DNA of 64,000 bases from Actinocorallia sp. API 0066 (GTDB lineage Bacteria > Actinomycetota > Actinomycetes > Streptosporangiales > Streptosporangiaceae), in contig NZ_JAJLQY010000014.1 of NCBI RefSeq assembly GCF_020991275.1, positions 62,001 through 126,000 on the forward strand, read 5' to 3'. Position numbers and translations under genes: made by a program. The notes beneath the pieces are model-generated. The model searched no databases and was not told the DNA's origin. It saw nothing but the letters and a program-made list of their open reading frames with translations. Shown here in pieces: positions 36,453 through 57,046 of this stretch. Positions within the stretch are counted from its first letter, which is position 1; every line of letters begins with the position of its first letter.

Positions 36453-36459
36453 TTTCGGG

Positions 36460-39890: not shown

Positions 39891-39977
39891 AGCGGGGCTC
39901 CCTGTTGGGTGGAGGGTGGAGTCCCAGCACCCTAGCGCAGGATCTTGGTAGGAATCCGTGAGAAACCTCTAATCCGC

Positions 39978-40751: not shown

Positions 40752-40882
40752 CCGCAACCTCCTCCGGCGCCCGGAACGGCGCGCGCGGCAGACTACCGGC
40801 GCGGCGGGCGGCCCGCACGGGGACACGCTTCGTTGCCGTCCCTTGGGCGTACACGCGGCCGTCGGGACGGTAAGAAGGGGGG

Positions 40883-42031
40883 ATGGAGGAGATCGACCCG
40901 CTCGTCCCGTGGATCGCCGACGGGCCCCTCGCGCCGCCGTCCGAGGGCCCGCTCGCCGGGCTGCGCCTCGCCGTGAAAGACAACCTCGACGTCGCCGGGT
41001 GGCCGACGGGCGCCGGGAACCCCGTCTGGCTCGCCGAACACGCGCTCCCGTCGCGGGACGCCGAGGTGGTGGCGCGGCTGCGCCGGGCGGGCGCGCTCGT
41101 CGTCGGCAAGGCCCACATGGACGAACTCGCTTACAGCCTCGCAGGCACGAACATCCACTACGGCTCGCCCCGGAACCCCTTGGCGCCCGGCCACTACACG
41201 GGCGGCTCCTCCAGCGGGTGCGCCTCGGCCGTCGCGGGGGACGTGGCCGACATCGGCCTGGGGACGGACACCGCAGGATCCATCCGGGTGCCCGCCGCCT
41301 TCACCGGCCTGTACGCGCTGCGCCCTTCGCACGCCCGGATGCCCTCTGAAGGAATGCTGCCTCTGGCCCCCACCTTCGATGTTCCGGGCTTGATGGCCCG
41401 TGACCCCGCCACCCTGGAACGCGCTGCTCTCGCCGTCCTGGATCCCCCGGCCCAGGAGACGGCGCCTCTCGAATGGCTGCTGGTCCCGGACGACCTGTGG
41501 TCGGAAGTCCCCGCCGCGCTGCGCGAGGCTTACGCCCCCGTCCTCTCCGCCCTCCGCTCGCTGCTCAAGGCCGACCGCACGCCGCTCTTCAAACGCCCGT
41601 CCCACTGGCACGACGCCGTGGCGGCCTTCACCACCGTCCAGGCCGGTGAAGCCTGGCGTCTCCTGGGCCCCTGGATCGCCTCCACCACCCCCGCCTTCGC
41701 CCCCTCGATAGCCGCCCGCTTCACCCGAGCCTCACACCTGACGCCCCACGACCTCACCCCCGCCTACGAGAAGACCACCCACGCCGGCGCCACTCTCCGC
41801 ACCCGCCTACGAGCCAGCGTCCTGGCCATCCCCACCTCCCCCTTCCCCCCGCCCCTCCTCACCGAGGACTTCCCCAGAACCCGCCTCCTCCGCTACACCA
41901 CCCTCGCCCCCCTGGCCTCCGCCCCCGCCATCACCCTCCCCATCCCGCACGACCCCCCACTGAGCCTCACCCTCATAACCCAACCCTCCACCGACGAACC
42001 CCTCCTCGCCCTGGCCCGCTCCCTCCCCTAA
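40883..42031 (+). CDS. Amidase-signature family hydrolase
   Basis: Hydrolyses amide bonds with a Ser-cisSer-Lys triad: Lys32 (LAVKDNLD), Ser109 in GGSSSGCAS and Ser133 in DTAGSIRVP. The domain is otherwise typical (AGALVVGKAHMDELAYSLAG, YGSPRNPLAPGHYTGGSSSG). At 382 residues it is shorter than most members (about 450-500), mainly through a compact C-terminal half. No signal peptide. The substrate cannot be predicted; GatA is unlikely because of length and lack of gatC/gatB. The stop overlaps the convergent antiporter gene by 4 bases. Confidence 0.85.
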   Translation: MEEIDPLVPWIADGPLAPPSEGPLAGLRLAVKDNLDVAGWPTGAGNPVWLAEHALPSRDAEVVARLRRAGALVVGKAHMDELAYSLAGTNIHYGSPRNPLAPGHYTGGSSSGCASAVAGDVADIGLGTDTAGSIRVPAAFTGLYALRPSHARMPSEGMLPLAPTFDVPGLMARDPATLERAALAVLDPPAQETAPLEWLLVPDDLWSEVPAALREAYAPVLSALRSLLKADRTPLFKRPSHWHDAVAAFTTVQAGEAWRLLGPWIASTTPAFAPSIAARFTRASHLTPHDLTPAYEKTTHAGATLRTRLRASVLAIPTSPFPPPLLTEDFPRTRLLRYTTLAPLASAPAITLPIPHDPPLSLTLITQPSTDEPLLALARSLP

Positions 42032-43281
42032 CCCACCTCGTCGAGGTGGCCGTCGCGGAACTCCGCACCGCCACCCCACCCGCACGCGCCCGCTGACGTC
42101 CCGGAGCCCGCGACCGGCCACGCGGGATCGTCGCGGCCGTCCTCGGGCGGGGATCCGCGGCGGGGCGTGAGAAGGCTCGCCAGGCGCGTGTGGATCCGGT
42201 CGGACCCGGCCAGGGCGTGCAGGACGTTGACGGTCAGGAGAGCGGGCGCGACAACGCCGACCACCTCGGGGAAGGCCGGTTGGAGGACGAGCGCCAGGAC
42301 GATCGCGGTGATGCCGTTCTGCTGGGCGAGCGCCAGTCCCGCGCGGTCCCCGGGTGGTCGCCCCCTGGTGAGGATCAGGCCGACGACCACCTGTGCGAAG
42401 TAGGCGGCCAGGCCCAGGACGACCCCCGCCAACGGATCGACGCCGACCGCGAGAACGAAGCCCATCACCAGGAGCGCGCAGCCGAAGGCACCGGCGACGA
42501 GGCGGTCGAGCGCGCCGTCCCAGCGGGCGCGGGCGCGTTCGGTCCGCAGCAGCTCGCCGGGACGCAGGAAGAGGCCGACGAGCGCGGCGAGCAGCATCCA
42601 GAACTGGGTGACGGCGACGACGCCGACCCCGGCCAGCAGCGCCAGCGCGAGCCCCCCGCGCCACCGCCCGCCCAGCCGTCGCAGCGCGAGCGCCAGCAGC
42701 AGCACGCCGACCGCGAGCAGGAGCGTCAGCCCGAGGGTTCCGGCGAACGACGCGAACCCAGCCCCGCCCAGCTCCGCTGTCGCGCCGAGGCCGTAGACGT
42801 CGATGGCGACCGCCGCCAGGACGAGCGTGAGCACCGTCGTCACGGGGTCGTCGAAGGAGGACCAGACGAGCAGCAGGTTCTGACCCCGCGCGCTGAGCCG
42901 TGTCGAGTCCTGGAGGGCGCGTACCGAGAGCGGGTCTATCTGTGCGACGGCGATACCGGCCACCAGCGCGAGCGGCCCCGGCCAGAAGAGGAACATGACG
43001 CCGCTGATGAGCGCCGCCTTGGCCACGACGCCGACGGTGACCGCCGCCACCGCCGTCCGCAGGTCCTGTTTCAGGAGGGTTCTGTCGATGCCGTGAGCAC
43101 TGGCGTACAGGCCGACCGCGAGCAGCGCCGATATCGCCGTGAAGTATCCGGAACTGGTGACGGTGTTCGCCACCGTGTCCGCCCCGGCCGCGAGTCCGAC
43201 GGCCCAACCGACCGCCGTGACCGAGAGCAGGATCACCAGCCGCCCACCGGGTGTGCCCGCCACGCGCACGAGTGGGATCAC
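42028..43281 (-). CDS. Cation/proton antiporter (CPA family)
   Basis: An integral membrane exchanger of 417 residues with about 11-12 helices. Family-type segments include VAQIDPLSVRALQDSTRLSA, WSSFDDPVTTVLTLV and RAGLALAQQNGITAIVLAL, which resemble the ion-path regions of Na+/H+ or K+/H+ antiporters. The C-terminal tail is short and hydrophilic with no RCK domain. GTG 43281 begins the protein close to the first helix. The 241-bp region upstream (43282-43522) is comparatively AT-rich and probably carries its promoter and that of the divergent cluster. Confidence 0.8.
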   Translation of the reverse strand: MIPLVRVAGTPGGRLVILLSVTAVGWAVGLAAGADTVANTVTSSGYFTAISALLAVGLYASAHGIDRTLLKQDLRTAVAAVTVGVVAKAALISGVMFLFWPGPLALVAGIAVAQIDPLSVRALQDSTRLSARGQNLLLVWSSFDDPVTTVLTLVLAAVAIDVYGLGATAELGGAGFASFAGTLGLTLLLAVGVLLLALALRRLGGRWRGGLALALLAGVGVVAVTQFWMLLAALVGLFLRPGELLRTERARARWDGALDRLVAGAFGCALLVMGFVLAVGVDPLAGVVLGLAAYFAQVVVGLILTRGRPPGDRAGLALAQQNGITAIVLALVLQPAFPEVVGVVAPALLTVNVLHALAGSDRIHTRLASLLTPRRGSPPEDGRDDPAWPVAGSGTSAGACGWGGGAEFRDGHLDEVG

Positions 43282-43385
43282 GGTAAACCGCCTCAGGCCG
43301 ATTGCACGGACACCGTCTTTACCGGGCGCTACCAGCGTAGGGGATCGCGGCGAAGGCGACTATGGCACACCACACAATCATCACC

Positions 43386-43406
43386 GAACGGCTTATACGG
43401 CCGTTC
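43386..43406. promoter_or_regulatory. 7-bp inverted repeat in the 43.3-43.5 kb intergenic region
   Basis: GAACGGC and GCCGTTC flank TTATACG. The site lies between the antiporter gene and the plus-strand ATPase operon. The TATAC in its loop could be part of a promoter, so a repressor site is plausible. Nothing else recognisable is seen in this intergenic stretch. Confidence 0.35.
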
Positions 43407-43522
43407 CCAAACATTGTTTCCGGCCATCATTATCCGAAACATCCGAGAAGTCCTTGTCACCGATTTTCACCGGGTGATATCGCTACGTCGTCGGATATGT
43501 ACTACCTGAGGGCGGATGCCTG

Positions 43523-44356
43523 GTGGATCAACGCTTTCCGAGCGCGCTTCTGCTCCTCACGGTATGCGTCCCCCTCGCCCTGCTCCGGGCCGGTCCGGCG
43601 GTGGCGGACGAGAATGACGACCTCGCCGCCGTCTACTGCCTCGCCGAAAGCCGCGGCGCGGAGTTCAACGAGGCCGCCGTCGCCCTGGGCGCCGCCTATC
43701 CCGACCCGACCCGCCCCGGCGGGATGTCCCTCACCGTCGCGGGAACGGCACCGGTGAGCGCGGCGGAACTGCGCGAGCACGACCCCGGAAAGTTCAAGCG
43801 GATCTGCGGCGCCGTCATGCGCGCCAACGCCGAGTCCCCCTCCCCCAAGGAGAAAGAGGGACTCCTCAAGGACCCCTTTGTGCTCGGCGTGACGAGCGTC
43901 CTGCTGTCCAGCGTGTCCGCCGTCGTCACGACCCTCGGCATCCAGTCCCTGGAGCGGCGCCGGGCGCGCCGCGACCGGCTCCCCGACGTGATCGACGCGT
44001 TCTACGCGGCCGCGAACTCCTACCTCGATCGTTGGGCGGACATGGTCAGCAACAGCGCCGACTACGCCGCCGTGGAAAGGGCGCGTGCCGACCTCGTGGC
44101 CACACTCTCGCGCCGGCCCACGTGGCGTGCCCGCCTCGCGCGGCGACTCGGGCTGCCCTCCGCGCGGAGCCGCCTGGACGCGGCGGTGCGGAGCCTGCCG
44201 CTGGGCGAGCCGCTGCCGTCCGGACCCGGACGCAACGACAGGCAGACGCGGGCGAGCCAGGAACGCGACCGACTACGCGAGAGCCGCCGCGCCGTCGAGG
44301 GGACCGCGCTGGGTGGACCGGCGGCCCCCGCTCCCGCCGCCGACCAGGAGGGTTGA
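43523..44356 (+). CDS. Membrane-anchored protein of unknown function, first gene of the ATPase operon
   Basis: Not recognised. The 277-residue product has an N-terminal signal or anchor (residues 6-28), an outside part of about 90 residues with two cysteines (Cys39, Cys95) that may pair, a membrane helix near 119-141, and a basic, helical cytosolic domain beginning QSLERRRARRDRLPDVIDAFY. The tail is Arg/Ala/Pro-rich. GTG 43523 has GAGGG upstream. The stop shares TGATG with the next gene. It could sense an outside signal and couple it to the two cytosolic ATPases, but this is inference from topology and order only. Confidence 0.65.
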   Translation: MDQRFPSALLLLTVCVPLALLRAGPAVADENDDLAAVYCLAESRGAEFNEAAVALGAAYPDPTRPGGMSLTVAGTAPVSAAELREHDPGKFKRICGAVMRANAESPSPKEKEGLLKDPFVLGVTSVLLSSVSAVVTTLGIQSLERRRARRDRLPDVIDAFYAAANSYLDRWADMVSNSADYAAVERARADLVATLSRRPTWRARLARRLGLPSARSRLDAAVRSLPLGEPLPSGPGRNDRQTRASQERDRLRESRRAVEGTALGGPAAPAPAADQEG

Positions 44357-45384
44357 TGACGGAGAACACCTTCGCCATACCGCTGCCGGGCCACGGCAGT
44401 ACCAGAGTCGGCGGGTCCGACACGTATCTCGACCCGCACGGGACTCCGGACCACGCGAAGCTCTACGCCGATCTCGATCACATGGGGATCCAGATCAGGA
44501 AGTTCAAGGAAAAGGTCGGGACCGGCCGGGGCACGACCGACGAGAGCCGGATCCAGGGTTATCTCGTCCTCGTCGGCGGCGCCGACGGCTCTGGCCGGAG
44601 CTCGCTGATCCACTGCTGCCTCGCGCATCTCGCCGAGAATCTTCCGCCGGCCGGAAACCTGAGTCCCACGATCGTCAATCTCAGCACGCGCTGGGGGGAA
44701 TACGACCAGATCCCCAGACTCACCGCCGACCAGTCCATGGCCGAAGCGATCATGAGCGGCGTGATCTCCTCCCTTCCCAAGCCCGAGAACGACACGATCC
44801 AGACCAGCTTCGACAGCCTCGGCCTCGGAAACATCAGCGACCGGGAAGAGGCTCCCTCAACTCGTTTCCACAACCTCAACGAATACCTGAAGATGAATGA
44901 CTCCTACCTTTTCCTGCTGACTCCGAAGCCACCGGAGAGCACCCGGGGACAGGCTTTCAACAGGCTTCTCAAGATTCTTTCGAACATGCGCGCCCATTCC
45001 CGCATCTCGGTGTTCATGGAAGTGACGCAGGACGAACTCGAGGAGGCCCAGCGGGTCCGCGAGGTCGCCGGGCGGCCGGGTTCGATCTTCCTGCGCATCG
45101 GCGCGCTCGCCGAGGACGACTGCCATGCCTTCGCCCGGAGAAGGACGGAGGCGGGTGTATGGGACAACCCATTGCGAGTGGACCTCTCCTCACTCTGCGG
45201 CATGGGGCCCGATGTCCGCTTTCGGACAGTCCGGGAGCTTCAGGAGGTCTTCCATGGCGCCGCGGACCTGCTCCTGTCCGGTCAGGGAAGGGTCGACGCC
45301 GGGGAGCCTCCCGTGCTTCGCGGCGCTGACGTCGTCACCTTCATCCAGCAGCGAAACCTGAGTGACGACCTGGAATACGGGTGA
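44356..45384 (+). CDS. P-loop NTPase of unknown family
   Basis: A 342-residue protein. Its Walker A reads GADGSGRSS (75-83), with Arg81 where Lys is usual, so nucleotide hydrolysis may be weak or altered. A beta-strand ISVFMEVTQDE could hold the Walker B or sensor region. The N-terminus TENTFAIPLPGHGSTRVGG is extended and probably flexible. ATG 44356 has AGGAGGG just upstream and overlaps the previous stop. The next gene overlaps by 4 bases (GTGA). No known fold match beyond the P-loop was recognised; the operon suggests a complex with the 773-residue ATPase. Confidence 0.65.
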   Translation: MTENTFAIPLPGHGSTRVGGSDTYLDPHGTPDHAKLYADLDHMGIQIRKFKEKVGTGRGTTDESRIQGYLVLVGGADGSGRSSLIHCCLAHLAENLPPAGNLSPTIVNLSTRWGEYDQIPRLTADQSMAEAIMSGVISSLPKPENDTIQTSFDSLGLGNISDREEAPSTRFHNLNEYLKMNDSYLFLLTPKPPESTRGQAFNRLLKILSNMRAHSRISVFMEVTQDELEEAQRVREVAGRPGSIFLRIGALAEDDCHAFARRRTEAGVWDNPLRVDLSSLCGMGPDVRFRTVRELQEVFHGAADLLLSGQGRVDAGEPPVLRGADVVTFIQQRNLSDDLEYG

Positions 45385-47702
45385 ACGAGAACGCGGTACC
45401 GGAATACCATGGCAAGACGGAACGGGATGGGAAAAATATGACAGAAAATACCGCCGTCCCCGAAGAAGGGGAGTATTCCCCAGATCTCAACCCCTTCCCC
45501 AGCAACCCCGCCGAATCCATCCGCACCGACCAGCGCGACCACGAGCGTGGGCTCAGAGCGCGGTGGGACGTTCCCATCTACCCCGATTCCACGCTGCGCA
45601 TGCACGTCATGCACCATCTGCACCCTCCCGCCAAACCACGGCGAGGCCGGGTGATCGCCCTCGTCGGCGCCCGTGGCGTCGGCAAGAGCCACCTGCTCAA
45701 CAGCCTGATCGAGGAGATCCGGACCGACCAGGCGGAACGCACCCTCCTGTGGAGCCTTGAGGCGCCGCCCGACCTGCTGGACACCTTCCGCAGCCAGGTG
45801 ACGGCGCTGCGCGCGGACCGGGAACTCACCCAGCGCTTCGAGCGCCTCATCGAGCGGTTCCAGGGAAAGGTCCTCGCCGGCATGCTCCGCGAAGGCGAGA
45901 CGCGCGGAACCCGGGCGGAACGCGTCCGCACCGCCGAGGCGCTGGAAGCGGGCCGGGCCGACCCCGAGAAGGTCCGCGACCGCTTCGGCATCAGCCGCGA
46001 GTCCGCCTACCTCCGGACCCGCCGGGACCTCGCCCGCGCCAGCGACCGCAGACTCGACACCCACGCCTCCATGGCGCTCCTCTCCCAGGGCGACCGCCGA
46101 CCCGAGATCTGGGACTGGCTGGCCGGGGAACCACCGGCCCAGGCGCTCGTCGACCGGGGAGTCCGCGAGCAGATCAGTACCAACGCCCACGTCTGTGAGG
46201 TGCTGGAAGCACTCGCCCAACTCCACGGAGCGCTCGGCCGCCACTGCGTCCTGGTGCTCGACTCCTTCGAACGCGCGCTCCAACGGCCGGAGAGCGAACG
46301 CGCCGAGTTCACCGGCGCGTTCGAACGGCTCGTCGACGGTTTCATCGACGCGGGCGGGCTGATCGTCTTCACGCTCCAACCCGAACTGCTGGGAGCGCTG
46401 AGCCCCAGCCTCCGGGAGCGCGTCACCCAGGTGTGGACGGCGCCGTTCACCGAGCAGGAGACCCGGGAACTCGTCCGCCGGAGGCTGTCGGACGAGCACG
46501 GGAACCCGCCGGACGGCACGGGGGCGTTCGATCCCAGTGCGATCGCCGAGATCCACAGCCTCGGCGACGGCCTGCCCAGACGGGTGCTGCGCACCTGTCA
46601 CGTCGCGTGGAGGCTGGCCGCCCAGGACCCGGACCAGCCGGGCGCCCGGCCGGGGGCGAAGCCGGAACACGTCAGCATCTCCCACGTCTGGGAGGCGGTG
46701 CGGGAGATCGAGGAGCGGACACCCGAGCGGGAGGCCCTCGACATGGTCGAACGGGCCCTCCGGCTGGAGGGCTGGCCGGTGCGGCGGCTCGTCGTCGGCG
46801 ACGCCTCCGGCCCGTCGCGGGGCGACGTGGCGTTCGAGGTCCAACTCCCCCAGGCGACCATCCGCGTCGGGGTCTTCCCCTCGGTCGTCAAGAACGACGA
46901 CATGCAACAGATCACCGCCACCGTGAGCCGGGAGTCGACGGCGCCGCTGATCGTCATCATCAACGGCTTCCTCGCCCGGCCGCAGCGGGACGCCATCGTC
47001 GGGCTGACCGGGCTGCCACCCCTCGTCCTCGGCTTCGGGCCGGAGTTCGGCGACCTGCTCAACGCGGCGCTGCGGCGCACCCAGCGGAACCTGGAGCGGA
47101 ACGCCGAACTCGCCAGGGAACGCGACCGGGACACGCTGCTCGACAAGCTCCGCCTGCTGGACCGGATCACCGTCGACGTCCAGGAGACGCACGAACTGCT
47201 CGACACGCTCCCCTACCGGCTCCGGCCGTCCGGGCGGACCGGCGCCCCCGACGGCATCAGGAGACGCCGGCGCCTGCGCGGCCTGACGACCCTGGAGGCG
47301 GCGGAGCGGTCACGGGAGACCGAGACCCTGTTCGACGAGGCCGCCAAGACCCTCGCGGACGCCGCGCCCGACTTCTCCTGGCGGCTCCACCTCGAAGGCG
47401 GAGACGGCCTGTTCCGTCCCCGCCGGGTCGAGCTGACCCACAAGCACATCCGCTCGCTCGGTCTGATCGCCGCCCTGACCACGCTGCTGGAGCAACTGCG
47501 CGAGGAGGTGGCGGAGGTCACGGCACAGGAGCGGGGCGGCGAAGCCCTGCGCGCCGTGTGCCGCTCCTTCGAGATCAGCGCCGAACGGCTCCCCTACGAA
47601 CTGCTCGACCCGGCGCCACGGCAGCGGGTCCTGCGGATCGTGGACCAACTGCCCCGCCGGGTGCTCGCCACCCTCAACCCGCGCTCAGAAAAGCGCCCCT
47701 GA
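45381..47702 (+). CDS. Large AAA/STAND-like ATPase with uncharacterised C-terminal region
   Basis: A 773-residue protein. Walker A is GARGVGKSHL (96-105) and Walker B CVLVLDSFE (about 287-295), followed by ALSPSLRERVTQVWTAPFTEQETRELVRRRL and LGDGLPRRVLRTCHVAW, an arrangement like Orc/STAND-type AAA modules with a winged helix. The C-terminal ~300 residues (from EREALDMVERAL) are unrecognised; RGDVAFEVQL might belong to a nuclease-like fold but this is weak. GTG 45381 is coupled to the previous stop. ATG 45438 (MTENTAVPEEG) resembles the previous gene's MTENT start and could be the true one. It overlaps the convergent 47685 gene by 18 bases. Confidence 0.7.
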   Translation: MNENAVPEYHGKTERDGKNMTENTAVPEEGEYSPDLNPFPSNPAESIRTDQRDHERGLRARWDVPIYPDSTLRMHVMHHLHPPAKPRRGRVIALVGARGVGKSHLLNSLIEEIRTDQAERTLLWSLEAPPDLLDTFRSQVTALRADRELTQRFERLIERFQGKVLAGMLREGETRGTRAERVRTAEALEAGRADPEKVRDRFGISRESAYLRTRRDLARASDRRLDTHASMALLSQGDRRPEIWDWLAGEPPAQALVDRGVREQISTNAHVCEVLEALAQLHGALGRHCVLVLDSFERALQRPESERAEFTGAFERLVDGFIDAGGLIVFTLQPELLGALSPSLRERVTQVWTAPFTEQETRELVRRRLSDEHGNPPDGTGAFDPSAIAEIHSLGDGLPRRVLRTCHVAWRLAAQDPDQPGARPGAKPEHVSISHVWEAVREIEERTPEREALDMVERALRLEGWPVRRLVVGDASGPSRGDVAFEVQLPQATIRVGVFPSVVKNDDMQQITATVSRESTAPLIVIINGFLARPQRDAIVGLTGLPPLVLGFGPEFGDLLNAALRRTQRNLERNAELARERDRDTLLDKLRLLDRITVDVQETHELLDTLPYRLRPSGRTGAPDGIRRRRRLRGLTTLEAAERSRETETLFDEAAKTLADAAPDFSWRLHLEGGDGLFRPRRVELTHKHIRSLGLIAALTTLLEQLREEVAEVTAQERGGEALRAVCRSFEISAERLPYELLDPAPRQRVLRIVDQLPRRVLATLNPRSEKRP

Positions 47703-48725
47703 CTCGGTGAGCTGGACGCGCAGCCGCCGCAGCCGCTCCCCCGCCTCGTCCACCCTGTCCTGGTTGAGGGTCGCGCCCACAAGGAGATCACCGGGCGCCG
47801 ACGTGCCGTCCACGAAGTACGCGCCGTCCTGCACGTCGAGGATGAGGCGCTGGAGCCGTCCCGGGTCCGTCGGCTCCGTCGGCCAGTCACCTCCCAGCCG
47901 CTCCCGGATGTCCTTGTCCTGCCACGGGCGGCGCAGGTGGTACGGCAGGTCCTCCAACGGGCGGCGCAGCGTGCGCAGGAGGGAGTCCCAGCCCCGGCGG
48001 AGGGAGGCCGGTGCCGTGTTGCGGGCGAAGAAGTAGCGTTCGGGGAGGCCGTCCAGGTTGTCGGCGGCACAGATCTGGGACCAGTTCCGGTGGTAGGCCA
48101 CGTACTGGAGGTCCTCGGGGTGGAGGTTCTCGGTGAACGGCGCGCTCCAGAAGAGCTCCGCGACGTCGCGATGCGCGAAGACCTCCTTGCCGGTCCGCTC
48201 CGGCGGGGGCAGCTCACCGGCCCTGCCGACACCGACGGGTTCGGCCGGACGGTGCAGCAGATGGACGCGGATCCGGTTCAGCAGCCCGCCCATCGCGGCG
48301 TCCAGGTCCGCGGTGGAGCGCGCGCCGTCCCCCGGATAGGTGGAGGCGGCGAGATAGTGGCCGGGTTTGATCCTGGCGGCGTAGTGGCCCTTGGTCTCGT
48401 ACTCGACCACCACCCGCAGGAGGTCGCCGGTGTCGAGCGGCGCCATCTCCCGCTCCCTGGCCCGCGTCCACTCCACCAGCGCCGCGCCGGGCGAGGCCAT
48501 CCGCTCCGCGAACGCGCCGTCGCTCCGGCCGTCGGACGGGTCGGCCGGCTCGCGACCGAGCACGAGCAGGTCGGGCCCGCCGACGGAGTAGTGCCCGATC
48601 TCGGCGATCGACGGGTGCCCGTCCAGCACCCGCTCGCATTCGGCGATCAGGTCCCCGAAACTCGCGTCACTCTCGTCGTAGTGCCAACTCCACCTCGGCG
48701 ACCGTTCGCGTGACGGCTCTGTCAT
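47685..48725 (-). CDS. Unknown protein downstream of the FxsT-like gene
   Basis: A 346-residue cytosolic protein with no recognised family. The middle contains EVFAHRDVAELFWSAPFTE, then LQYVAYHRNWSQICAADNL and GLPERYFFARNTAPAS; the C-terminus is helical (DEAGERLRRLRVQLTESGALF). No membrane helix, P-loop or zinc motif. It follows the 1306-residue FxsT-like gene by 22 bp on the same strand and is probably the last gene of that operon. Its 3' end meets the plus-strand ATPase operon tail to tail. Confidence 0.6.
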   Translation of the reverse strand: MTEPSRERSPRWSWHYDESDASFGDLIAECERVLDGHPSIAEIGHYSVGGPDLLVLGREPADPSDGRSDGAFAERMASPGAALVEWTRAREREMAPLDTGDLLRVVVEYETKGHYAARIKPGHYLAASTYPGDGARSTADLDAAMGGLLNRIRVHLLHRPAEPVGVGRAGELPPPERTGKEVFAHRDVAELFWSAPFTENLHPEDLQYVAYHRNWSQICAADNLDGLPERYFFARNTAPASLRRGWDSLLRTLRRPLEDLPYHLRRPWQDKDIRERLGGDWPTEPTDPGRLQRLILDVQDGAYFVDGTSAPGDLLVGATLNQDRVDEAGERLRRLRVQLTESGALF

Positions 48726-48747
48726 GGTGCCCAGCCCTTCGCCGGCC

Positions 48748-51700
48748 TCAGATTCCGATCAGCTCGATGTCGAGTTCCCGCCGCTCCCGGTGGTCACCGG
48801 TGTCGTCGCCCTCCAGCGCGGCCCGCGTCAGCGCCATGTTCCGCTCGATCCTGACGATGTGCGGATGCCCGGCCGGATACAGGACACGGTAGGTCTCCAA
48901 CGCCTCACCCTCCAACAGCCGCGCCTTGTCCAGGGACTCCGGGGAACCCCCGGCGGCGAGGGCGTTGGCGAGACACACCCGCGCCGCCGCAATCCACGTG
49001 TTGCGTGGCGGCAGGGCACGGACCAACGCCTCCAGCGCGAGCCGCGCCTCCGACCGGGCCCGCTCGGTCTCCCCGATCCCACGGCGGGCGGCGGCCCGAT
49101 GCAGCCGGGGCAACTGGACCACATGATGCGACGTGCTGAACCTCAGGTGTTCCGCCGTCCACTCGGCCTGTTCGAGCGCCTCCTCGTAGCGGCCGAGCTC
49201 CAGGAGGTCGGCGGTGATGTTCGCGCTGGAACTCAGCTTGTGGAACGCGTCGGCGCCACGCCGCGCCACCCGCTCGTCGAACAGTTCCCGGTCACGCTCC
49301 AGCGCCTCCTCCGGCCTGCCCTCGCGGCGCTCGGTGATGGCGATCCCCGACTCGGCCTGGCGCAGGAACGGCAGCGCGGACCGAGGCCATGACGACACGG
49401 CGTACCGCATCTCCTTGAGCAGGCTCGCCGAAGCACCGTGGCGGCCCATCTCCCGGTGGATCGCCGCGAGCATCAGCGTGAACCGCAGCGTCTGGGGGTC
49501 GTCGCCGCGCCGGGTGGCGAGCAGGAAGGCACGGCGCGGCAGGACGATGTCCAGCGCCTCCTGCGGGTAGCCGGAAACCAGCTCGCCCAGCGCGTGGTTG
49601 TGCTCGCACTGGACGGTCACCGGATGGTCGGGCCCGAGGAGTTCACCCAGGCGCCGCATGACGTCGGCGGAGATCGTGCGCGACCTCCGCAGATCCCCGT
49701 TGAGGCGCAGGGCCCGAGCGTAGAAACCCGCGCTCAACAGCGTCCGGGGGGTGTCCCTGCCGAACCAGCGCCGCTGCTCGTGATAGGCCGTCAGCGCGCT
49801 GCTGAGATCCTCGCGGTCCCCCAGCACGCGGTGCGCCTGAGCCATGTGGTTCAGCAGCCGCAGGTACTCCGGGAGCGGCCGCGCGCCCGGTTTCGGCTTC
49901 CACTCGTCCGCGAGCAGCCCCCCCAGGCGCAGCGCGCTGCGCGCGGACACCTCGTCGTCGGCGTGCGCCAGCTCGTAGATCCGCTCCAACAGCCAGCCAC
50001 GGGTCCAGGCGGACTTCTTGTCCTCCCACATCCGCAGGCTCCAGATCCGCGCGAGGACCTCGGCGGGCGGAGCCTGGCCCGCGCGGACGACGGGCGTGGG
50101 GTTCCCGACCGCCCTGCCGAGCAGCTCGCGCAGCCGGTTGAGCCGGGACTCCTTCATCTCGGCCATCACCTTCGCGCGGACGGCCGGGTGAACGCGGATC
50201 GGCAGGGCGTCGTCACGTCGATGGCCGCCCTCGCTCCGGTCGGCCTCCTTCAGCTGTCCGGTCTCCACCTTGAGCAGGCCGTACCGGGCGAACAGCCAGA
50301 CCACCGCGTCCACCACCAGCGGGTCACTGAGGAAGATCTGGTCCTCGCCCAGAACATCCTCCCGCTCACGCGACGCCGCGCCGAGATCGAGGGACTCCAG
50401 GGGGTTGAGGGAATCCAGCGGCGAGAAGGGCCGCCCGCTGCGGAAGCTCCGCGACTCCCTGACGTCGGTCCCCTCCCTGATGTCGCGGACCAGGACACGC
50501 TGGAACTCGGGGGCCCGCAGCAGAGCCGTCGTGACGCCCCCCGACCCTCCCAGCAGGACGCAGAACTCAAGCAGTTGGAACGGGTTCGTCCACCCCGTAC
50601 CGCGCAGCCAGGGGATCAGGTCCGGATGGTTGGGCAGGTTCTCCCAGATGAGGGTGAGCAGCGTCTGCAGGAGCGGCTGCTCACGGCCCGAGACATCCCC
50701 CTTGCGGACACCGAAATCGCGGACAAAACGGCGCACCGCGGCGCCGTCGACAAAGGAGCGCGCCGCAGTGCCAGCGGCGCGCTTCGGAGAGTCCTGGTGC
50801 TGCGGAACCCCGAGCTTCTCCTTGAGGGTCTCCTCACGCAGATAGGAGATGGCGAAACTGAGGGCCAGCGGCATGTTGTCCACGACCTCGGCGACCTGGA
50901 CGGCCTCCCGCTCCGACAGCGTGGGCAGCCCGCCGCGCACGAAGGCGGCCGCGTCCCGCGTGGGCAGCGCCCCCAGGGCGATCCGGGGCAGGGGCGGCGC
51001 CGGTTCCTCCGCCGTGGTGACGAGGACGAGCCCGTCCCCCTGCCTCAGCGCCCTCGTCACGAGATGCGCCCGCTCCTCGCCGTCCGGCACGGGCACGCAG
51101 TCAAGCCCGTCCAGGACCATCAGCCAGCGCCTGCCGTCCTCGTCGGCCCCGCCCATCTCCCGGCACACCGCGCCGAGCAGCCTGACGACGTCGTCGAAGG
51201 TCCCGTCGTCACCCTGCGACAGACGCCTGACGATGTGCTCCCCCGTGTTCGACCGGTTGGGCGCGGCCACCGGGCCGGGCGTCCCGTCGTCGCCGTCGCC
51301 GGCCCGCAACCGCTGGTGGAACCGGACCAGGCCCTGGAGCAGCGAGCCTGTCTCCACGGCGTCCACCCACCAGACGCCCCGGTAGCCGCCGCCGTACCGG
51401 TGGCAGTACTCGGCGGCGACACCGCTCTTGCCGCAGCCGCGCGGCCCGGTGAGCGCCACCGAGCCTTCGGCGAGCGCCTGGTCCAGGTCCTCCAGCAGCT
51501 CGTCGCGGCCGGTGAAGTAGGGGTCGCGGTCCGGCAGGAACCCGCCGTCCGGCGGCCGTGGCGGCGGCGGGGTGTCCGGCGCCTCCGCGACCGCCGAAGC
51601 GCCCAACGCCGCCTTGATCCTGACGACGGCGTCCTGCGGATCCAGGCCGATGAGGTCGACCGTCGTCAGATGGGCGAGTGCCGCCGGAACCACCGGATCG

Positions 51701-52668
51701 TCGACCAGGAACAGCAGGGACGCGGCGGGCAGCCCGGCGAACGACAGGCCCGGCGCCCGTCCCGGCGCCAACACCACGACCCGGTGCGCGGTGCCGGGAT
51801 GCGACCGGACGTAGCCGTCCATGTCATAGAGCGTGGCCGGGCAGTCGGTGTACCCGAGGACGTCCCTGATCCACTCGGCCCACAGCCGGTGCCTCGGCCC
51901 GTGGACGAGGTGGACGACGGAAGCGGACGGCCCCGAAGGCCGGAGCGCGTCGGCGAGTTCCTCGTAATGCCCGGTCAACAGGAGGAAGGACGAGCCCACC
52001 CGCAAACCCAACTCGGGCACGAACGGTATTTGCAGCACCCGCGAAACCCGTGTTCCGCCGTTCCGGAAATCGGATTCGGACACGCGCGCGGCACGGAGCG
52101 CGCGCCGGGTGTTCTCGATCGCCGCCTGAAGATCGTGCGCGCCCAACGGTTCGATACCCGTCCACACCGCGACCACGGCGACGTTTCCGGCCGCCCGCTC
52201 CGCCGCTTCGGCGGCTTCCCGCAGGAGGCCGAAGGCCGTTTCCCACGGTTTAAGGATCGAGCACACCGCGAGCGTGTCGGCCCACTCCAGGAAATCATCG
52301 AGAACCCTCAGGTCATAAACGGGCGGCGCGTCAATGAGAATGTGCCCGTAGCGTCGCCGCCACCCGTCGAGAGAGGCGGGCACGGACCCCGCCGGGACCA
52401 CCACACGGCGGAGCGTCGCCCGGCCCCCCGGCGCGCTCCACAGCGCCAGCTCGGCCACGTCCACGGGGCCCTCGACGTCGAAGAGGGCCGCCACGTCGGC
52501 GCCCGGCTCCAGCTCCCCGCCCCGCCCGGCCATCTGCACGATGAGCACGTCCGTCTCGGTCGACCGGGCGAGACGCGCGGCGGCGCCCGCCAGCGACGTC
52601 GTGCGGCCGACACCCTTGACCTCCGCGCAGAAGACCGTCACCCGGCCCGCACCCGCTCTGTCAGCCAT
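48748..52668 (-). CDS. fxsT: FxsT-like protein: ParA-like P-loop, TIR-like, NB-ARC and TPR regions
   Basis: A 1306-residue multi-domain NTPase resembling the tetratricopeptide protein of FXSXX systems. The N-terminus RVTVFCAEVKGVGRTTSLAG (9-28) is a SIMIBI/ParA-like P-loop with one Gly missing and Arg in place of the usual Lys, so it may be degenerate. Around 255-365 a TIR-like segment starts VVHLVHGPRHRLWAEWIRDVLG. The NB-ARC module has Walker A TGPRGCGKSG (about 403-412) and WLMVLDGLD, and the C-terminal third is TPR-like (ALTAYHEQRRWFG, ETERARSEARLALEAL). ATG 52668 has GGAG 5 bases upstream. It lies between the fxsA-like gene and the 346-residue gene on one strand. Confidence 0.75.
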   Translation of the reverse strand: MADRAGAGRVTVFCAEVKGVGRTTSLAGAAARLARSTETDVLIVQMAGRGGELEPGADVAALFDVEGPVDVAELALWSAPGGRATLRRVVVPAGSVPASLDGWRRRYGHILIDAPPVYDLRVLDDFLEWADTLAVCSILKPWETAFGLLREAAEAAERAAGNVAVVAVWTGIEPLGAHDLQAAIENTRRALRAARVSESDFRNGGTRVSRVLQIPFVPELGLRVGSSFLLLTGHYEELADALRPSGPSASVVHLVHGPRHRLWAEWIRDVLGYTDCPATLYDMDGYVRSHPGTAHRVVVLAPGRAPGLSFAGLPAASLLFLVDDPVVPAALAHLTTVDLIGLDPQDAVVRIKAALGASAVAEAPDTPPPPRPPDGGFLPDRDPYFTGRDELLEDLDQALAEGSVALTGPRGCGKSGVAAEYCHRYGGGYRGVWWVDAVETGSLLQGLVRFHQRLRAGDGDDGTPGPVAAPNRSNTGEHIVRRLSQGDDGTFDDVVRLLGAVCREMGGADEDGRRWLMVLDGLDCVPVPDGEERAHLVTRALRQGDGLVLVTTAEEPAPPLPRIALGALPTRDAAAFVRGGLPTLSEREAVQVAEVVDNMPLALSFAISYLREETLKEKLGVPQHQDSPKRAAGTAARSFVDGAAVRRFVRDFGVRKGDVSGREQPLLQTLLTLIWENLPNHPDLIPWLRGTGWTNPFQLLEFCVLLGGSGGVTTALLRAPEFQRVLVRDIREGTDVRESRSFRSGRPFSPLDSLNPLESLDLGAASREREDVLGEDQIFLSDPLVVDAVVWLFARYGLLKVETGQLKEADRSEGGHRRDDALPIRVHPAVRAKVMAEMKESRLNRLRELLGRAVGNPTPVVRAGQAPPAEVLARIWSLRMWEDKKSAWTRGWLLERIYELAHADDEVSARSALRLGGLLADEWKPKPGARPLPEYLRLLNHMAQAHRVLGDREDLSSALTAYHEQRRWFGRDTPRTLLSAGFYARALRLNGDLRRSRTISADVMRRLGELLGPDHPVTVQCEHNHALGELVSGYPQEALDIVLPRRAFLLATRRGDDPQTLRFTLMLAAIHREMGRHGASASLLKEMRYAVSSWPRSALPFLRQAESGIAITERREGRPEEALERDRELFDERVARRGADAFHKLSSSANITADLLELGRYEEALEQAEWTAEHLRFSTSHHVVQLPRLHRAAARRGIGETERARSEARLALEALVRALPPRNTWIAAARVCLANALAAGGSPESLDKARLLEGEALETYRVLYPAGHPHIVRIERNMALTRAALEGDDTGDHRERRELDIELIGI

Positions 52669-52750
52669 GCAGACTCCGCTTCGACCGCCCGGCACGTCGG
52701 CACCAGCATATAACCGCGCGGCGGCGCCCGCCCGTCCTCGGCCGGACCTT

Positions 52751-52906
52751 TCAGTTGGCAGTGTCATCGAAAGAGATGAAGGACTCTGTTTCGGTGTCGT
52801 CAAGGCCCGCGAGAATCGCCCGCACCAGATGGCCGAGCACATTACCCGGAAGCCGGTCGGCGGCCGCTGGATGGACACCCGAGATATCAACCAGGGGCTG
52901 GGACAT
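52751..52906 (-). CDS. fxsA: FxsA-like precursor peptide with non-terminal FxS motif
   Basis: A 51-residue precursor: MSQPLVDISGVHPAAADRLP, then GNVLGHLVRAILAGLDDTET and ESFISFDDTAN. The leader (PLVDISGV followed by an amphipathic helix NVLGHLVRAIL) matches the usual FxsA leader, and the radical SAM gene fxsB is divergent 197 bp away. In classical FxsA the peptide ends at FxSxx; here F43-I-S45-F-D is followed by four more residues (DTAN), so the core is shifted inward. ATG 52906 has no clear ribosome site; an upstream in-frame GTG at 52954 is less likely. A candidate promoter lies at 52956-52985. Probably co-transcribed with fxsT. Confidence 0.75.
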   Translation of the reverse strand: MSQPLVDISGVHPAAADRLPGNVLGHLVRAILAGLDDTETESFISFDDTAN

Positions 52907-52955
52907 GCATTGAGCATACCGGGGAGGGAAGGCCGAAGACGTGTCCGGTGGCACA

Positions 52956-52985
52956 GGATAATCGGCCGACGGCGGCCCTCAGCAA
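52956..52985 (-). promoter_or_regulatory. Candidate promoter for fxsA
   Basis: On the minus strand TTGCTG (52985-52980) and TTATCC (52961-52956) are separated by 18 bases. A start about 7 bases downstream would give a leader of roughly 40 bases. Confidence 0.3.
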
Positions 52986-53003
52986 TTCCGGCGCCGCGTT
53001 CTC

Positions 53004-53032
53004 TTGACCCGTTTTCCGAGGCGGACGATACT
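53004..53032 (+). promoter_or_regulatory. Candidate promoter for fxsB
   Basis: TTGACC (53004-53009) and GATACT (53027-53032) are separated by 17 bases, a good fit to a housekeeping promoter. The fxsB ATG lies 72 bases beyond. The promoter sits back to back with the candidate fxsA promoter. Confidence 0.45.
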
Positions 53033-53103
53033 CACGTTGAGCGGGCGACACGCCGACGGCGCCACCGTCGGGGAATCCGCCTCTCCGGGGGGAGGCCGCG
53101 GCG

Positions 53104-54300
53104 ATGGAACCGATGTGGCCCTACGGGCTCGACGTCGCCGCGCTGACCGCGTCCGGGTGGCGGCCGAGCCCGCTGCGCACCTTCGTCTACAAGATCCACA
53201 GCCGGTGTGATCTGGCCTGCGCCTACTGCTACATGTATGAGAGCGTCGACCAGAGCTGGCGTGACCAGCCGCCGCGGATGGACTCCGAGACGATCGACCG
53301 GGCGGCGCGACGCGTCGGCGAGCACGCCCGGCGGCACCGCCTGGACCAGGTGGGGGTCATCTTCCACGGTGGTGAACCGCTGCTGGCCGGGCTCGACCTC
53401 ATCGGCGAGGCGGTCGCGAGCGTGCGGCGCGAGGTCGGGCCGGGGGTCCTCACCCGGTTCGGCGTCCAGACCAACGGGCGGATGCTCACCGCCGCCATGA
53501 CGGCCGGGCTCGCCGGACTCGGCGTGCGGGTGGGCGTCAGCGTCGACGGCACCGCCGAAGCGCACGACAGGCACCGCAGGGGCAAGGACGGCGGGGGCAG
53601 CCACGCGGTCGTCCGGCGGAACCTGCTCCGGCTGCGCGACGGCGAGCACGCCGCGATCTTCAACGGCGTCCTGTGCACCGTCGATCTCCGCAACGACCCG
53701 CTCGAAACCTACGAGGCGCTGCTGGAGTTCGCGCCGCCGTCGGTGGACTTCCTGCTCCCGCACGCGAACTGGTCGGCGCCGCCGCCGGGCGCCGGCCCCG
53801 GCACCCCGTACGCGGACTGGCTGCTGCGCGTCTTCGCGCGGTGGTACGACGCGCCCGTCCGGGAGACCCGGGTGCGCTCGTTCGAGGAGATCCTGCGGCT
53901 CCTCCTGGGCCGTCCGGCCCGGCTGGAGAGCCTCGGCTCCGCCCCGCTGCGCTACCTGGTGATCGAGACGGACGGCTCCTTCCGCCAGAGCGACGCCCTC
54001 AAGACCGCCTACGCGGGCGCCGCCGACCTGGTGGGCAACGTCCACACCCATCCGATCGACGCCGCGCTGGCCCAGCCCCCCATGGTGGCCCGCCAACTCG
54101 GCGTCACCGGCCTAGCCCCAGAATGCCGCCACTGCCCCGTCGTGTCCGTCTGCGGCGGCGGCCACTACGCCCACCGCTACCACCCCGACACCGGCTTCCT
54201 CAACCCAACGGTCTACTGCCGCGACCTCTACGCCCTCATCCAGGGAATCCGCCTCCGCCTCGAAGCCGACGTCTCCGCCCTACGCGACACAGCCTCCTGA
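53104..54300 (+). CDS. fxsB: FxsB-type radical SAM/SPASM peptide maturase
   Basis: A 398-residue radical SAM enzyme. The cluster-binding motif CDLACAYC (Cys35, Cys39, Cys42, the CxxxCxxC spacing) follows LRTFVYKIHSR; GGEPLL and GVQTNG mark the SAM-binding barrel. The C-terminal SPASM-like part has CRHCPVVSVCGGGHYAHRY (Cys341, Cys344, Cys350) and NPTVYCRDL. This C-terminus is close to the FxsB pattern, whose members modify FxsA peptides; related enzymes form strained side-chain cross-links. ATG 53104 has GGGAGG 8 bases upstream. The divergent FxsA-like precursor is its likely substrate. All cluster ligands are intact. Confidence 0.88.
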   Translation: MEPMWPYGLDVAALTASGWRPSPLRTFVYKIHSRCDLACAYCYMYESVDQSWRDQPPRMDSETIDRAARRVGEHARRHRLDQVGVIFHGGEPLLAGLDLIGEAVASVRREVGPGVLTRFGVQTNGRMLTAAMTAGLAGLGVRVGVSVDGTAEAHDRHRRGKDGGGSHAVVRRNLLRLRDGEHAAIFNGVLCTVDLRNDPLETYEALLEFAPPSVDFLLPHANWSAPPPGAGPGTPYADWLLRVFARWYDAPVRETRVRSFEEILRLLLGRPARLESLGSAPLRYLVIETDGSFRQSDALKTAYAGAADLVGNVHTHPIDAALAQPPMVARQLGVTGLAPECRHCPVVSVCGGGHYAHRYHPDTGFLNPTVYCRDLYALIQGIRLRLEADVSALRDTAS

Positions 54301-54538
54301 CAACAGGCCGGGACCGCGCTCGGGGGTGGCCCGATGGGGACGGGGGCGTGCGGGGGGTGGGGGTTGTCCTTTATGTTGCGGATTGTCGGGTGAGAGGGCG
54401 CTTACCTGTTATGGAATTCTCGGACGTGGGGGCGGGGGACGTGCGAATCTGCTGGTGGCGCCCTGGAGAGTGGGCGGGAAGAGCGCGCGGCGTCCGGACG
54501 GGCGGGGGCGCAGGGTCGGCAGGAAGGAGGGCGCTGCC

Positions 54539-54943
54539 GTGAGCGGTGCCGTGTTCCAGGAACCCCAATTTGGTGAGGCAGTTAGAGCGGTGCTTGAAGG
54601 GGAGGCGCCTTACGTCGTGTTCCGGGTGGAGGAGGGTGAGGGCCACGTGGTCGTCAGGGTGGACCCGCCCGAGGTGGAGGAGGCTGCCTTCCTCGCGCGC
54701 TTCCCCTACAGCGTCTGCCGGTACGCCCTGTACGCGCTGGACATCAGGGACGAACCCACGCCCGTCCTGGTCCGCTGGACGCCCCCGGCCGCCCCGCGCA
54801 CCGAACAGCTCCGCTACGCCCGCCACGAACCCGCCGTCCACCGCGCCCTGGGCCCCTCCGTCACGCACACCCTCAGCGCCACCCACCACGCCGACCTCGG
54901 CGAACCCCTCCCCCGCCCCAGAACCCACCCCGCCCCCGGCTGA
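54539..54943 (+). CDS. Unknown small protein downstream of fxsB
   Basis: A 134-residue protein with no recognised family: SGAVFQEPQFGEAVRAVLEG, then YVVFRVEEGEGHVVVRVDPPEVEEAAF and YSVCRYALYALDI, ending in a basic Pro/His-rich tail. The first half looks like a compact alpha/beta domain. The GTG at 54539 is well supported by AGGAAGGAGG 8 bases upstream. A 238-bp space separates it from fxsB; it contains no other gene I can support and may hold a promoter. It may or may not belong to the Fxs locus. Confidence 0.6.
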   Translation: MSGAVFQEPQFGEAVRAVLEGEAPYVVFRVEEGEGHVVVRVDPPEVEEAAFLARFPYSVCRYALYALDIRDEPTPVLVRWTPPAAPRTEQLRYARHEPAVHRALGPSVTHTLSATHHADLGEPLPRPRTHPAPG

Positions 54944-54974
54944 CGCCCCGAGCCACACACCGCCCGGCGCGGCT

Positions 54975-55412
54975 CTAGGAGTCGAGGTAGGGGTCGGTGA
55001 TGGGGCGGAGGCGGGTGAGGGCGTCCCGGAGGGCGGTGTAGCGGCGCGGGCCCAGGTGGGCCAGCCATTCGGCCTCGACGGCTGCGGTGGCGGCGTCCGC
55101 GACGGGGCGGGCCGCCTCGGCGCGCGCGGTGAAGCGGACCAGGCGGGCGCGCGCGTCGGTCGGGTCCAGGACGCGTTCGACGTAGCCCGCGCGCTCCAGT
55201 TGGTCCACGAGGTACCCGGCGGTCTGCTTGGTGATCTGGGCGGATTCGGCCAGGTCGGTGACGCGCGACCCGTCGTCGGCGATCCGCGCGAGCAGCCGGG
55301 CCTGCGCGGGCGTCAGCTCGTGTCCGGCTTCGGCCAGCGCGGCGAACACACGCCGCTCCATCTCCCGGTACGGGACGAACAGCAGCACCCCGAGGCCGAT
55401 CTCGTCCGGCAC
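54975..55412 (-). CDS. MarR-family transcriptional regulator
   Basis: A winged-helix repressor of about 145 residues: PDEIGLGVLLFVPYREMERRVF, then LTPAQARLLARIADDGSRVTDLAESAQITKQTAGYLVDQLERAGYVERV, which holds the recognition helix and wing, and a C-terminal dimerisation helix. GTG 55412 is preferred for the conserved PDEIGLG start; GTG 55424 is possible. It is divergent from the DinB-like gene, with a 21-bp palindrome between them (55446-55466), so autorepression and control of that gene are expected. The ligand is unknown. Confidence 0.9.
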   Translation of the reverse strand: MPDEIGLGVLLFVPYREMERRVFAALAEAGHELTPAQARLLARIADDGSRVTDLAESAQITKQTAGYLVDQLERAGYVERVLDPTDARARLVRFTARAEAARPVADAATAAVEAEWLAHLGPRRYTALRDALTRLRPITDPYLDS

Positions 55413-55445
55413 GGCACACCCCACAGGCTTGACGATAGTAAGAAC

Positions 55446-55466
55446 CTCTGCCTAATTTAGACAGAG
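55446..55466. promoter_or_regulatory. 21-bp palindromic operator between marR and the DinB-like gene
   Basis: CTCTGCCTAA and TTAGACAGAG flank a central T; the arms match at all but one pair (position 6 against 16). Its size and place between divergent genes fit a MarR dimer site. Confidence 0.75.
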
Positions 55467-55499
55467 ACACTCACTGATTCTAGCCGTGGAGGAAGGCCC

Positions 55500-56132
55500 G
55501 TGCGACTCACCGAAGCCGAACAGTGGAAGGTGATCGACGGGGAGCGCGCCTCCCTCGCCGTCCTCCTGGCCACCCTCACGCCGGCGCAGTGGGCCGCGCC
55601 GTCGCTGTGCGCGGGCTGGACCGTCCGCGAGGTCGCCGCGCACCTGGGCGCCGGGCCCACCGCGCGCCTGCCCCGGGTGCTCCTCGACGTCGCCAGGGCG
55701 CGCGGGAACTTCAACAGGTTCGTCGACGCCACCGCCCGCCGCGACGCGCGCAGGCCACCGCACGAACTCGTGGCGACGCTCCGGGGCGCCGTCGGATCGC
55801 GACGGCTCGCCCCAGGCCAGAAGCTCTCTTACGCCCTCCTCGACGTCCTCATCCACGGCCAGGACATAGCCCTCCCCCTGGGCCTCGACAGGCCGATGCC
55901 GCTGGCAGCCGCCCGCCAGTCCGCCGAAGTCATCTACCGGATGGGCTCCCCCTTCCACGCCCGCAAACACCTCACAGGGCTCCGCCTCCAGGCCACCGAC
56001 ATCAAGTGGAGCGCAGGCGAGGGCGCCTTGGTCGAAGGTCCTATCGCGGCCCTCCTCCTGCTCGTCTCCGGCCGCCCCGCCGCCCTGCCCCGCCTCACCG
56101 GCCCCGGCGTCACCACCCTCGCCGTCCGCTGA
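55500..56132 (+). CDS. DinB/maleylpyruvate isomerase-family protein (mycothiol-dependent type)
   Basis: A 210-residue four-helix protein of the MDMPI_N/DinB-like class, which includes mycothiol-dependent isomerases and S-transferases typical of actinobacteria. Motifs: LCAGWTVREVAAHLGA (with a putative metal His48) and LLDVLIHGQDIALPLG (further metal/His-Asp pair). The start GTG 55500 has GGAGGA upstream. It is divergent from marR and probably regulated by it, suggesting a detoxification role. The C-terminus includes LVSGRPAALPRLTGPGV, common in this family. Confidence 0.8.
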   Translation: MRLTEAEQWKVIDGERASLAVLLATLTPAQWAAPSLCAGWTVREVAAHLGAGPTARLPRVLLDVARARGNFNRFVDATARRDARRPPHELVATLRGAVGSRRLAPGQKLSYALLDVLIHGQDIALPLGLDRPMPLAAARQSAEVIYRMGSPFHARKHLTGLRLQATDIKWSAGEGALVEGPIAALLLLVSGRPAALPRLTGPGVTTLAVR

Positions 56133-56255
56133 ACCCGCGCCCGTCCCGCGACGGGGGTCCGGGACGGGCGCGCGGGATTTGCCACACGTTGGTCACCGTG
56201 CGCGTTTTCGGGTGGCCGGGTGGGGTGAGCACTCTCCTGACAGGGAGGGGTGCCG

Positions 56256-57029
56256 GTGACCGGTAGCGGACGGGTGCTGGACGGCCGGGCAGGGCTCATC
56301 ACCGGGGCGGCGCGCGGCATCGGACGGGCCATGGCGCTCGCGTTCGCGGCGGCCGGGGGCAAGGTCGTCGTCGGCGACATCGACGACCACGAGGGGCGCC
56401 GCACCGTCGCGCTCATCCACGAGGCCGGAGGCACCGCCGTGTTCGTCGCCGCCGACGCCGCCGTGGACGAGGACGTGCACCTGCTCGTCGCCGCCGTCGT
56501 CGACCACTACGGGCGGCTGGACTGGGCCGTCAACAACGCGGGCCTCGGCTCGCCCGCGCAGCCGGGACAGGAGTGCGGCCCCGACCGCTGGAACCAGGTC
56601 ATGGGCGTCGGCCTTGAGGGCGTCAGGTCGGCGCTCGCGCACGAGATCGAGCAGATGCGCAAGCAGGGCGACGGAGGCGCGATCGTCAACACCGCCGCCT
56701 CGCCCAGGCTCAACGTGCAAGGCGGCCTGTCGCCTTGGGTCGCCGCCAAGTCCGGCGTCCTCGGCCTCACCATGGCGGCCGCGCTCAGGTACGCGCAGGA
56801 CGGCATCCGCGTCAACGCGCTCAGCCCCGGCCGCACGCTCACCCCCGCCGTCGAGCGGCAGATGGCCGAAGACCCGGCGGCCGCCCGCGCGCTTATCGAA
56901 CGCATCCCCCTACGCCGTCTCGCCACCCCCGAGGAGCAGGCACAGGCCGCGCTCTGGCTCTGCTCGCCGCTCGCCTCGTACGTGACGGGTGTCGCCCTGA
57001 ACGTCGACGGCGGCGCCTCGATCGCCTGA
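56256..57029 (+). CDS. SDR-family oxidoreductase with Trp in place of the catalytic Tyr
   Basis: A Rossmann-fold protein of 257 residues. The cofactor motif TGAARGIG (16-23), VGDIDD for cofactor choice, NNAG and the C-terminal GVALNVDGG are typical of classical SDRs. The active site is unusual: YxxxK reads WVAAK (Trp161, Lys165), and the upstream Ser region is TAASP. It may therefore be inactive, use another mechanism, or be structural. GTG 56256 is preferred over GTG 56250 because GGGAGG is 7 bases upstream. The sugar transporter gene follows 17 bp later, suggesting a joint role in polyol or sugar use. Confidence 0.85.
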   Translation: MTGSGRVLDGRAGLITGAARGIGRAMALAFAAAGGKVVVGDIDDHEGRRTVALIHEAGGTAVFVAADAAVDEDVHLLVAAVVDHYGRLDWAVNNAGLGSPAQPGQECGPDRWNQVMGVGLEGVRSALAHEIEQMRKQGDGGAIVNTAASPRLNVQGGLSPWVAAKSGVLGLTMAAALRYAQDGIRVNALSPGRTLTPAVERQMAEDPAAARALIERIPLRRLATPEEQAQAALWLCSPLASYVTGVALNVDGGASIA

Positions 57030-57046
57030 CGTCCGAAGGGGACCCC

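Follow-up and report, generated by a model that had tools for sequence, protein, structure and literature searches.

The window, the whole 64,000-nucleotide stretch of DNA analysed here, carries what is on balance a fast-diverging FxsA/FxsB RiPP locus in an accessory segment, whose precursor peptide would receive one crosslink, most likely between F46 and D48, and would end in an ordinary extension. The whole locus covers about 43.5-54.3 kb, more than the 52751-54300 considered in the original prediction. Its features and immediate surroundings are the following:

42026..54980, no strand: accessory segment carrying the whole locus, about 13 kb, with flanks that align to the genome G001.
43523..44356 (+): 277-residue protein, possibly part of the locus; weak homologue in locus L202 (27.9% identity, E 1.4e-7).
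44356..45384 (+): P-loop (AAA_16-like) protein, possibly part of the locus; AAA_16 at E 4.2e-4, below the cut-off.
45381..47702 (+): AAA/NACHT-like ATPase of 773 residues, a conserved partner with homologues in all five of the loci L198-L202.
47685..48725 (-): P0004, 346 residues, without a family, a conserved locus partner found beside FxsT in all five of L198-L202.
48748..52668 (-): FxsT-type protein of 1306 residues, P-loop ATPase plus TPRs; NF040586 (FxSxx_TPR) at 319.4 bits, cut-off 300.
52751..52906 (-): fxsA-like precursor of 51 residues, with its ATG at 52906, its stop at 52751 and a leader from LVDISGV onward.
53104..54300 (+): fxsB, radical SAM/SPASM peptide maturase of 398 residues; TIGR04269 at 438.7 bits, cut-off 370.
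54539..54943 (+): cofilin/ADF-like ORF of 134 residues, PF00241 at E 2e-9; at most a candidate member of the locus.

The sequence, length and gene order of the precursor are all as originally described: a peptide of 51 residues (MSQPLVDISGVHPAAADRLPGNVLGHLVRAILAGLDDTETESFISFDDTAN) that ends in SFISFDDTAN and is encoded head to head with an intact, divergently oriented fxsB. Two candidate cores lie at its C-terminus, F46-D47-D48 and F43-I44-S45. The claim of an FxsA-type leader holds as well. With a profile of TIGR04268 matches from other loci, built without the window, the precursor frame ranks first among all window ORFs of at least 25 codons (E 3.9e-7; the next is at 0.23), and such a value in an independent profile makes the FxsA relationship more than chance. 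The alignment spans the leader and the helix only and leaves the core region without profile support. When the profile is built from six nearer relatives instead, the precursor is still the top match, but at E 0.33 only. The pairing of FxsA with FxsB is backed by this leader homology together with the gene order, and the fxsA product is presumably the substrate of the adjoining FxsB.

The peptide gives no match to TIGR04268 (cut-off 28 bits), to any NCBIfam model at E≤1 or to Pfam at E≤0.1, and it ends in FISFDDTAN rather than with FxSxx as its last five residues. Direct searches retrieve nothing but the peptide: within its own genome (the next match is at E 0.49), in one of three genomes of the genus and in one of 345 genomes across the order, with no relative among them. 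Because it is too short and too diverged for direct search, its relatives were sought through FxsB neighbourhoods. Altogether, it looks like a divergent FxsA outside the curated TIGR04268, within a known kind of system. The GC3 of its gene is 0.69, against 0.94 for fxsB. The FxsT frame is open straight through fxsA in another frame (48748-52917 (-), 1389 codons, with an upstream ATG), an annotation trap.

The CxxxCxxC motif of FxsB is intact, and the protein keeps all six cysteines (C35, C39, C42, C341, C344 and C350) that at least 95% of a set of 65 FxsB sequences share. The second-best NCBIfam model, NF041707 (YhhB), remains under its cut-off; the nearest solved relative by sequence is the radical SAM domain of ChlB (PDB 9gm3, E 1.5e-77). 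We take IPR026335 to be the FxsB entry, and MscB, listed under it, to belong to the FxsB family. Viperin was considered because of a PADLOC pVip match to FxsB (E 4e-10), which we attribute to the shared radical SAM fold. Four FxsB genes of the source genome score over the TIGR04269 cut-off.

In a maximum-likelihood tree of the 65 FxsB sequences, the window protein falls with those of G215, G216, G220 and G221, which belong to a single genus (support 96/89); its branch is long (0.96), and the tree program flags the placement as unsure. The protein deviates in 9 out of 119 columns that are strongly conserved, and only L011 deviates more. The long branch of unsure placement and these departures make an altered FxsB specificity, or decay, possible. 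A search of 341 genomes with the four clade FxsB sequences gave 763-804 bits for the clade and at most 654 for all others, a gap to be read with caution since the same four sequences built the query. When the search for this clade was extended class-wide, to 345 genomes from the larger group, 7 genomes matched at E≤1e-180, all of one family; besides the source genome, none is nearer than the relatives already found. FxsB genes also occur in head-to-head pairs, about 250 bp apart in G313 (C1:2994166-2996781), G301 and G195 and about 730 bp apart in G194. In each pair, one gene is part of a reading frame that stays open for about 840-870 codons, pointing to a fusion of FxsB to another domain such as HExxH.

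The peptide had been thought an unusual variant because residues follow its FxSxx, a view that the family at large does not bear out. We searched 200 out of 341 genomes belonging to the same GTDB family with TIGR04268, and 58 have matches over the cut-off. We read the 64 matches over the cut-off and six below it; one with an identical end was dropped, leaving 63 distinct members, whose core residue was located by the preceding pattern or, in 22, by hand. That residue is Phe in 60 members and His in three. It is followed by exactly four residues in 35, by more in 27 and by fewer in one: 28 of the 63 accepted members do not place four residues past the core, as a terminal FxSxx would. The acceptor is Ser in 38 and another residue in 25, among them Asp in two. 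In the source genome itself, the only TIGR04268 match over the cut-off belongs to another locus, on contig C3, and ends in AAFNAALPPSR; two weaker candidates on contig C2 end in AYFDNRMRRREPRD (recruited by an iterated profile) and GGFDNKMAQ (E 0.66 only). The 27 extended members and these extended peptides of the same genome make residues beyond FxSxx an ordinary trait of the family.

Nor is the DTAN tail conserved, the point on which the original prediction had proposed a check. Nearest-clade precursors, again head to head with fxsB, end in LFSNDYIESPPAPS, PISNDYAESPPAL and AFSTDYERTHPADYEREADPPPAQ; two almost identical copies share the last of these ends. FxSxx is terminal in none of them and DTAN occurs in none, one has no core Phe and all are extended; it is from such unrelated tails (FSNDYIESPPAPS, ISNDYAESPPAL and FSTDYERTHPADYEREADPPPAQ) that the lack of conservation follows. 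The precursor at L199 (L046, in G220), beside an FxsB of the window clade, ends in PSPISNDYAESPPAL; its last 25 residues contain no Phe, and the locus also lacks the HExxH gene.

A profile search for precursors near FxsB, about 4 kb to each side, found none at 46 of 63 loci, at least in part because the stretches were too short: in roughly a dozen of these genomes a TIGR04268 match lies just outside. A filter for FxS within the last 14 residues misses most precursors near FxsB, and screening by eye found two; they were finally collected by profile search combined with TIGR04268. In the genomes sampled, then, the name FxSxx-COOH fits only part of the family, and searches that require a terminal FxSxx, like the TIGR04268 cut-off, overlook such precursors beside a good FxsB gene. 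The window clade offers a compact test set for the tolerance of FxsB to changes of core and tail.

Judged by alignment to relatives, the core appears distinctly more likely to be F46-D47-D48 than F43-I44-S45. The core residue of the relative falls on F46 in 34 of 69 pairwise alignments, on F43 in 16, and elsewhere or on no residue in 19; for the best 20 alignments the counts are 15, 4 and 1. In the MAFFT alignment, F46 shares a column with the core residue of five out of six relatives. A side remark in the original prediction, that F46 might be the site, fits these alignments better than the F43-x-S45 it put forward. With the core at F46, one residue would follow the five-residue core and the acceptor would be Asp, rare in the family with two of 63, instead of Ser. 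A Phe three residues before the core, as F43 would be to F46, is seen in three of 63 members (FAGF, FVGF and FLGH). Neither register resembles a normal core well: a PSSM around the core gives -6.7 for F43 and -6.3 for F46, where true cores, each left out in turn, score between -5.0 and 20 and other Phe between -21 and -0.6.

In the mechanism we propose, FxsB would recognise the N-terminal leader (LVDISGV and the helix) and form one three-residue C-C crosslink near the C-terminus, from the ring of a Phe to the β carbon two residues on. The Phe would most likely be F46 and the acceptor D48, in a core F46-D47-D48-T49-A50 followed by N51; F43 with S45 would be the less likely pair. The residues behind the core would be an extension of the ordinary kind that many relatives have, and crosslinking would not require their trimming. 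The product might serve as a signal or a toxin coupled to the ATPase/TPR protein, as the literature proposes.

It is possible, though rather unlikely, that the core is instead F43-I44-S45-F46-D47, FxsB accepting an internal FxSxx and DTAN being kept or removed by an enzyme encoded elsewhere. The acceptor would then be Ser, as in 38 of 63 members, and a Phe three residues past the core, as in FDSFIS (L122), FDSFVD (L130) and FGAFNQ (L134), would suit F43. The spacing from the leader Asp to the Phe leans the same way, being 36 (F43) in 11 of 64 sequences and 39 (F46) in 7 of 64, and 16 of the 69 alignments choose this register. However, the residues before F43 are TES, unlike the V-A-G or V-A-A that mostly precede cores of the family, and the alignments prefer F46 by 34 to 16. 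As for removal of the tail, PosC, an HExxH relative, cuts off a C-terminal tetrapeptide according to a section of PMC12636437, whereas beside the window fxsB neither an HExxH gene nor a remnant of one is present (best E 0.055).

Two neighbouring crosslinks, F43-S45 and F46-D48, within the contiguous FISFDD seem less probable again. Both triplets have the form aromatic-x-acceptor, and ChlB, the structure nearest to FxsB, is called a multiple cyclophane synthase in the title of a cited reference. The same three members, L122, L130 and L134, show F-x-x-F-x-x from the core onward, but the other 60 of 63 have no such tandem, so that a single core is the rule.

A further reading starts from the clade, whose precursors carry FSNDY, FSTDY, ISNDY (with no core Phe) and, in the window, FISFDD. 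Somewhat doubtfully, the FxsB enzymes of this clade may have left Phe-x-Ser behind and form Phe-Asp, tandem or Tyr bonds, the window doing so without a hydroxylase; three of the four remaining clade genomes have a hydroxylase gene after fxsB.

The surroundings of the pair are conserved. The order ATPase (+), P0004 (-), FxsT (-), fxsA (-), fxsB (+) is common to all five relatives compared (L198-L202, that is, the four clade genomes and G025), with FxsT downstream of fxsA on the same strand. In Pfam, FxsT matches TPR_12 over the cut-off and AAA_16 just under it, and the 773-residue ATPase matches NACHT (29.9 bits) and AAA_22 (29.7 bits), both over the cut-off. P0004 has no match in NCBIfam or Pfam, and the protein at 44356..45384 no homologue across 12 compared loci. 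PADLOC returned nothing for FxsT and P0004 and only weak P-loop matches for the ATPase. FxsT, P0004 and the ATPase are about 25-31% identical to their counterparts in the five relatives; among three genomes of the other genus the values are about 49-62%.

An HExxH gene lies after fxsB in four of the five relatives and is absent from L199. TIGR04267, to which we assume IPR026337 corresponds, finds three HExxH genes in the source genome, on C3 and C1 only, one of them beside the FxsB of C3. The two others (G000 C1:32429-32935 and C1:253724-254116) are on a contig without an FxsB match. Among the 65 FxsB occurrences, 12 show no HExxH match within the fetched stretch of about 4 kb or more around, and three of these (L053, L063 and L073) have precursors of canonical length. 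Removal of DTAN by a protease had been suggested; the HExxH gene, the usual neighbour of fxsB and the candidate for such a role, is absent here, which argues against local trimming, though an enzyme encoded elsewhere might act.

The same absence could be taken as a sign of drift towards loss, the core having degenerated and the partner hydroxylase having gone, and the off-profile core and long FxsB branch would agree, as would the relative at L199 (L046), which has neither a core Phe nor an HExxH gene. We think this improbable. The genes have uninterrupted frames and are about as long as in the relatives, the conserved cysteines are kept, and the 12 FxsB occurrences without an HExxH match include the three with canonical-length precursors. 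Moreover, FxsT, P0004 and the ATPase are about equally divergent (28-30% identity to L198), so that the whole locus probably split off long ago, rather than FxsB alone decaying.

The locus is accessory: neither of the two congeners compared has it at the corresponding position. Window positions 38691-42025 and 54981-58407 both align to G001, of the same genus, where 5.4 kb of other DNA separates the two. In G002 the alignment of the left flank stops about 100 bases away from the gene for malate dehydrogenase, and the content of window 42.0-58.5 kb is absent there. Four stretches taken from the matching place gave no match at E≤1e-4 to FxsB, FxsT, P0004, the ATPase, the products of the two genes that precede it, HExxH or the cofilin-like protein. 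Window 30366-38690 is likewise missing from the syntenic place in G001, where 30365 and 38691 are 27 bases apart; it holds two STAND/TPR-like ORFs, 30463-32991 (-), with repeated TPR-like units, and 33267-35375 (-).

The FxSxx family was reportedly first described as such by Haft and Basu in 2011. With the FxSxx-COOH/FxsB system (TIGR04268, TIGR04269) the window locus shares an FxsB-family enzyme, an FxsA-type leader and an FxsT-type ATPase/TPR neighbour. It differs in a peptide that does not reach the TIGR04268 cut-off and is not FxSxx-ended, in having no HExxH (zincin-like) gene, and in the extra ATPase and P0004 genes. Literature searches linking the FxSxx peptides to cyclophanes, the maturase to radical SAM chemistry, or FxsA to FxsB brought up nothing relevant. 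Passages of an eLife paper of 2020 (PMC7159879) describe a peptide-processing system of the FxSxx type that is coupled to an AP-ATPase/TPR protein, as well as standalone systems in which the AP-ATPase has an extra inactive MinD/ParA-like domain; there, HExxH proteins are taken for peptidases and the metallopeptidase-like gene is called a core part.

Triceptide enzymes (MscB, XncB, OscB, YxdB and YhhB) resemble the present one in their SPASM radical SAM architecture and an aromatic-x-acceptor core, as outlined in parts of PMC11002830; the crosslink here is predicted. By the same parts, MscB joins Phe C4 to Ser Cβ, OscB links Trp with Asn or Asp, and YxdB links Tyr with Asp; Phe-to-Asp is not among the bonds that these parts describe. 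In the sections of PMC12636437 that treat HExxH proteins, these carry out α-ketoglutarate-dependent β-hydroxylation after cyclophane formation, and two of them remove a C-terminal tetrapeptide. The same sections present ChlB-type proteins, fusions of a radical SAM and an α-ketoglutarate HExxH domain (PDB 9gm3); among solved structures, their radical SAM domain comes closest to FxsB in sequence, whereas the window has neither an HExxH domain nor such a neighbour.

The cofilin-like ORF sits directly after fxsB, where most compared relatives carry the HExxH gene. A literature search on bacterial ADF homology found nothing. Structure prediction without an alignment gave the protein a mean pLDDT of 43.1, too low to be informative; against the PDB it matches actophorin (7sog_A, E 2.7e-7) and several cofilins. 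PF00241 occurs in two of 100 family genomes, the source and G039 (best E 8.8e-20), and in none of 14 controls. A family of actin-binding fold in such a bacterium is surprising and merits separate attention.
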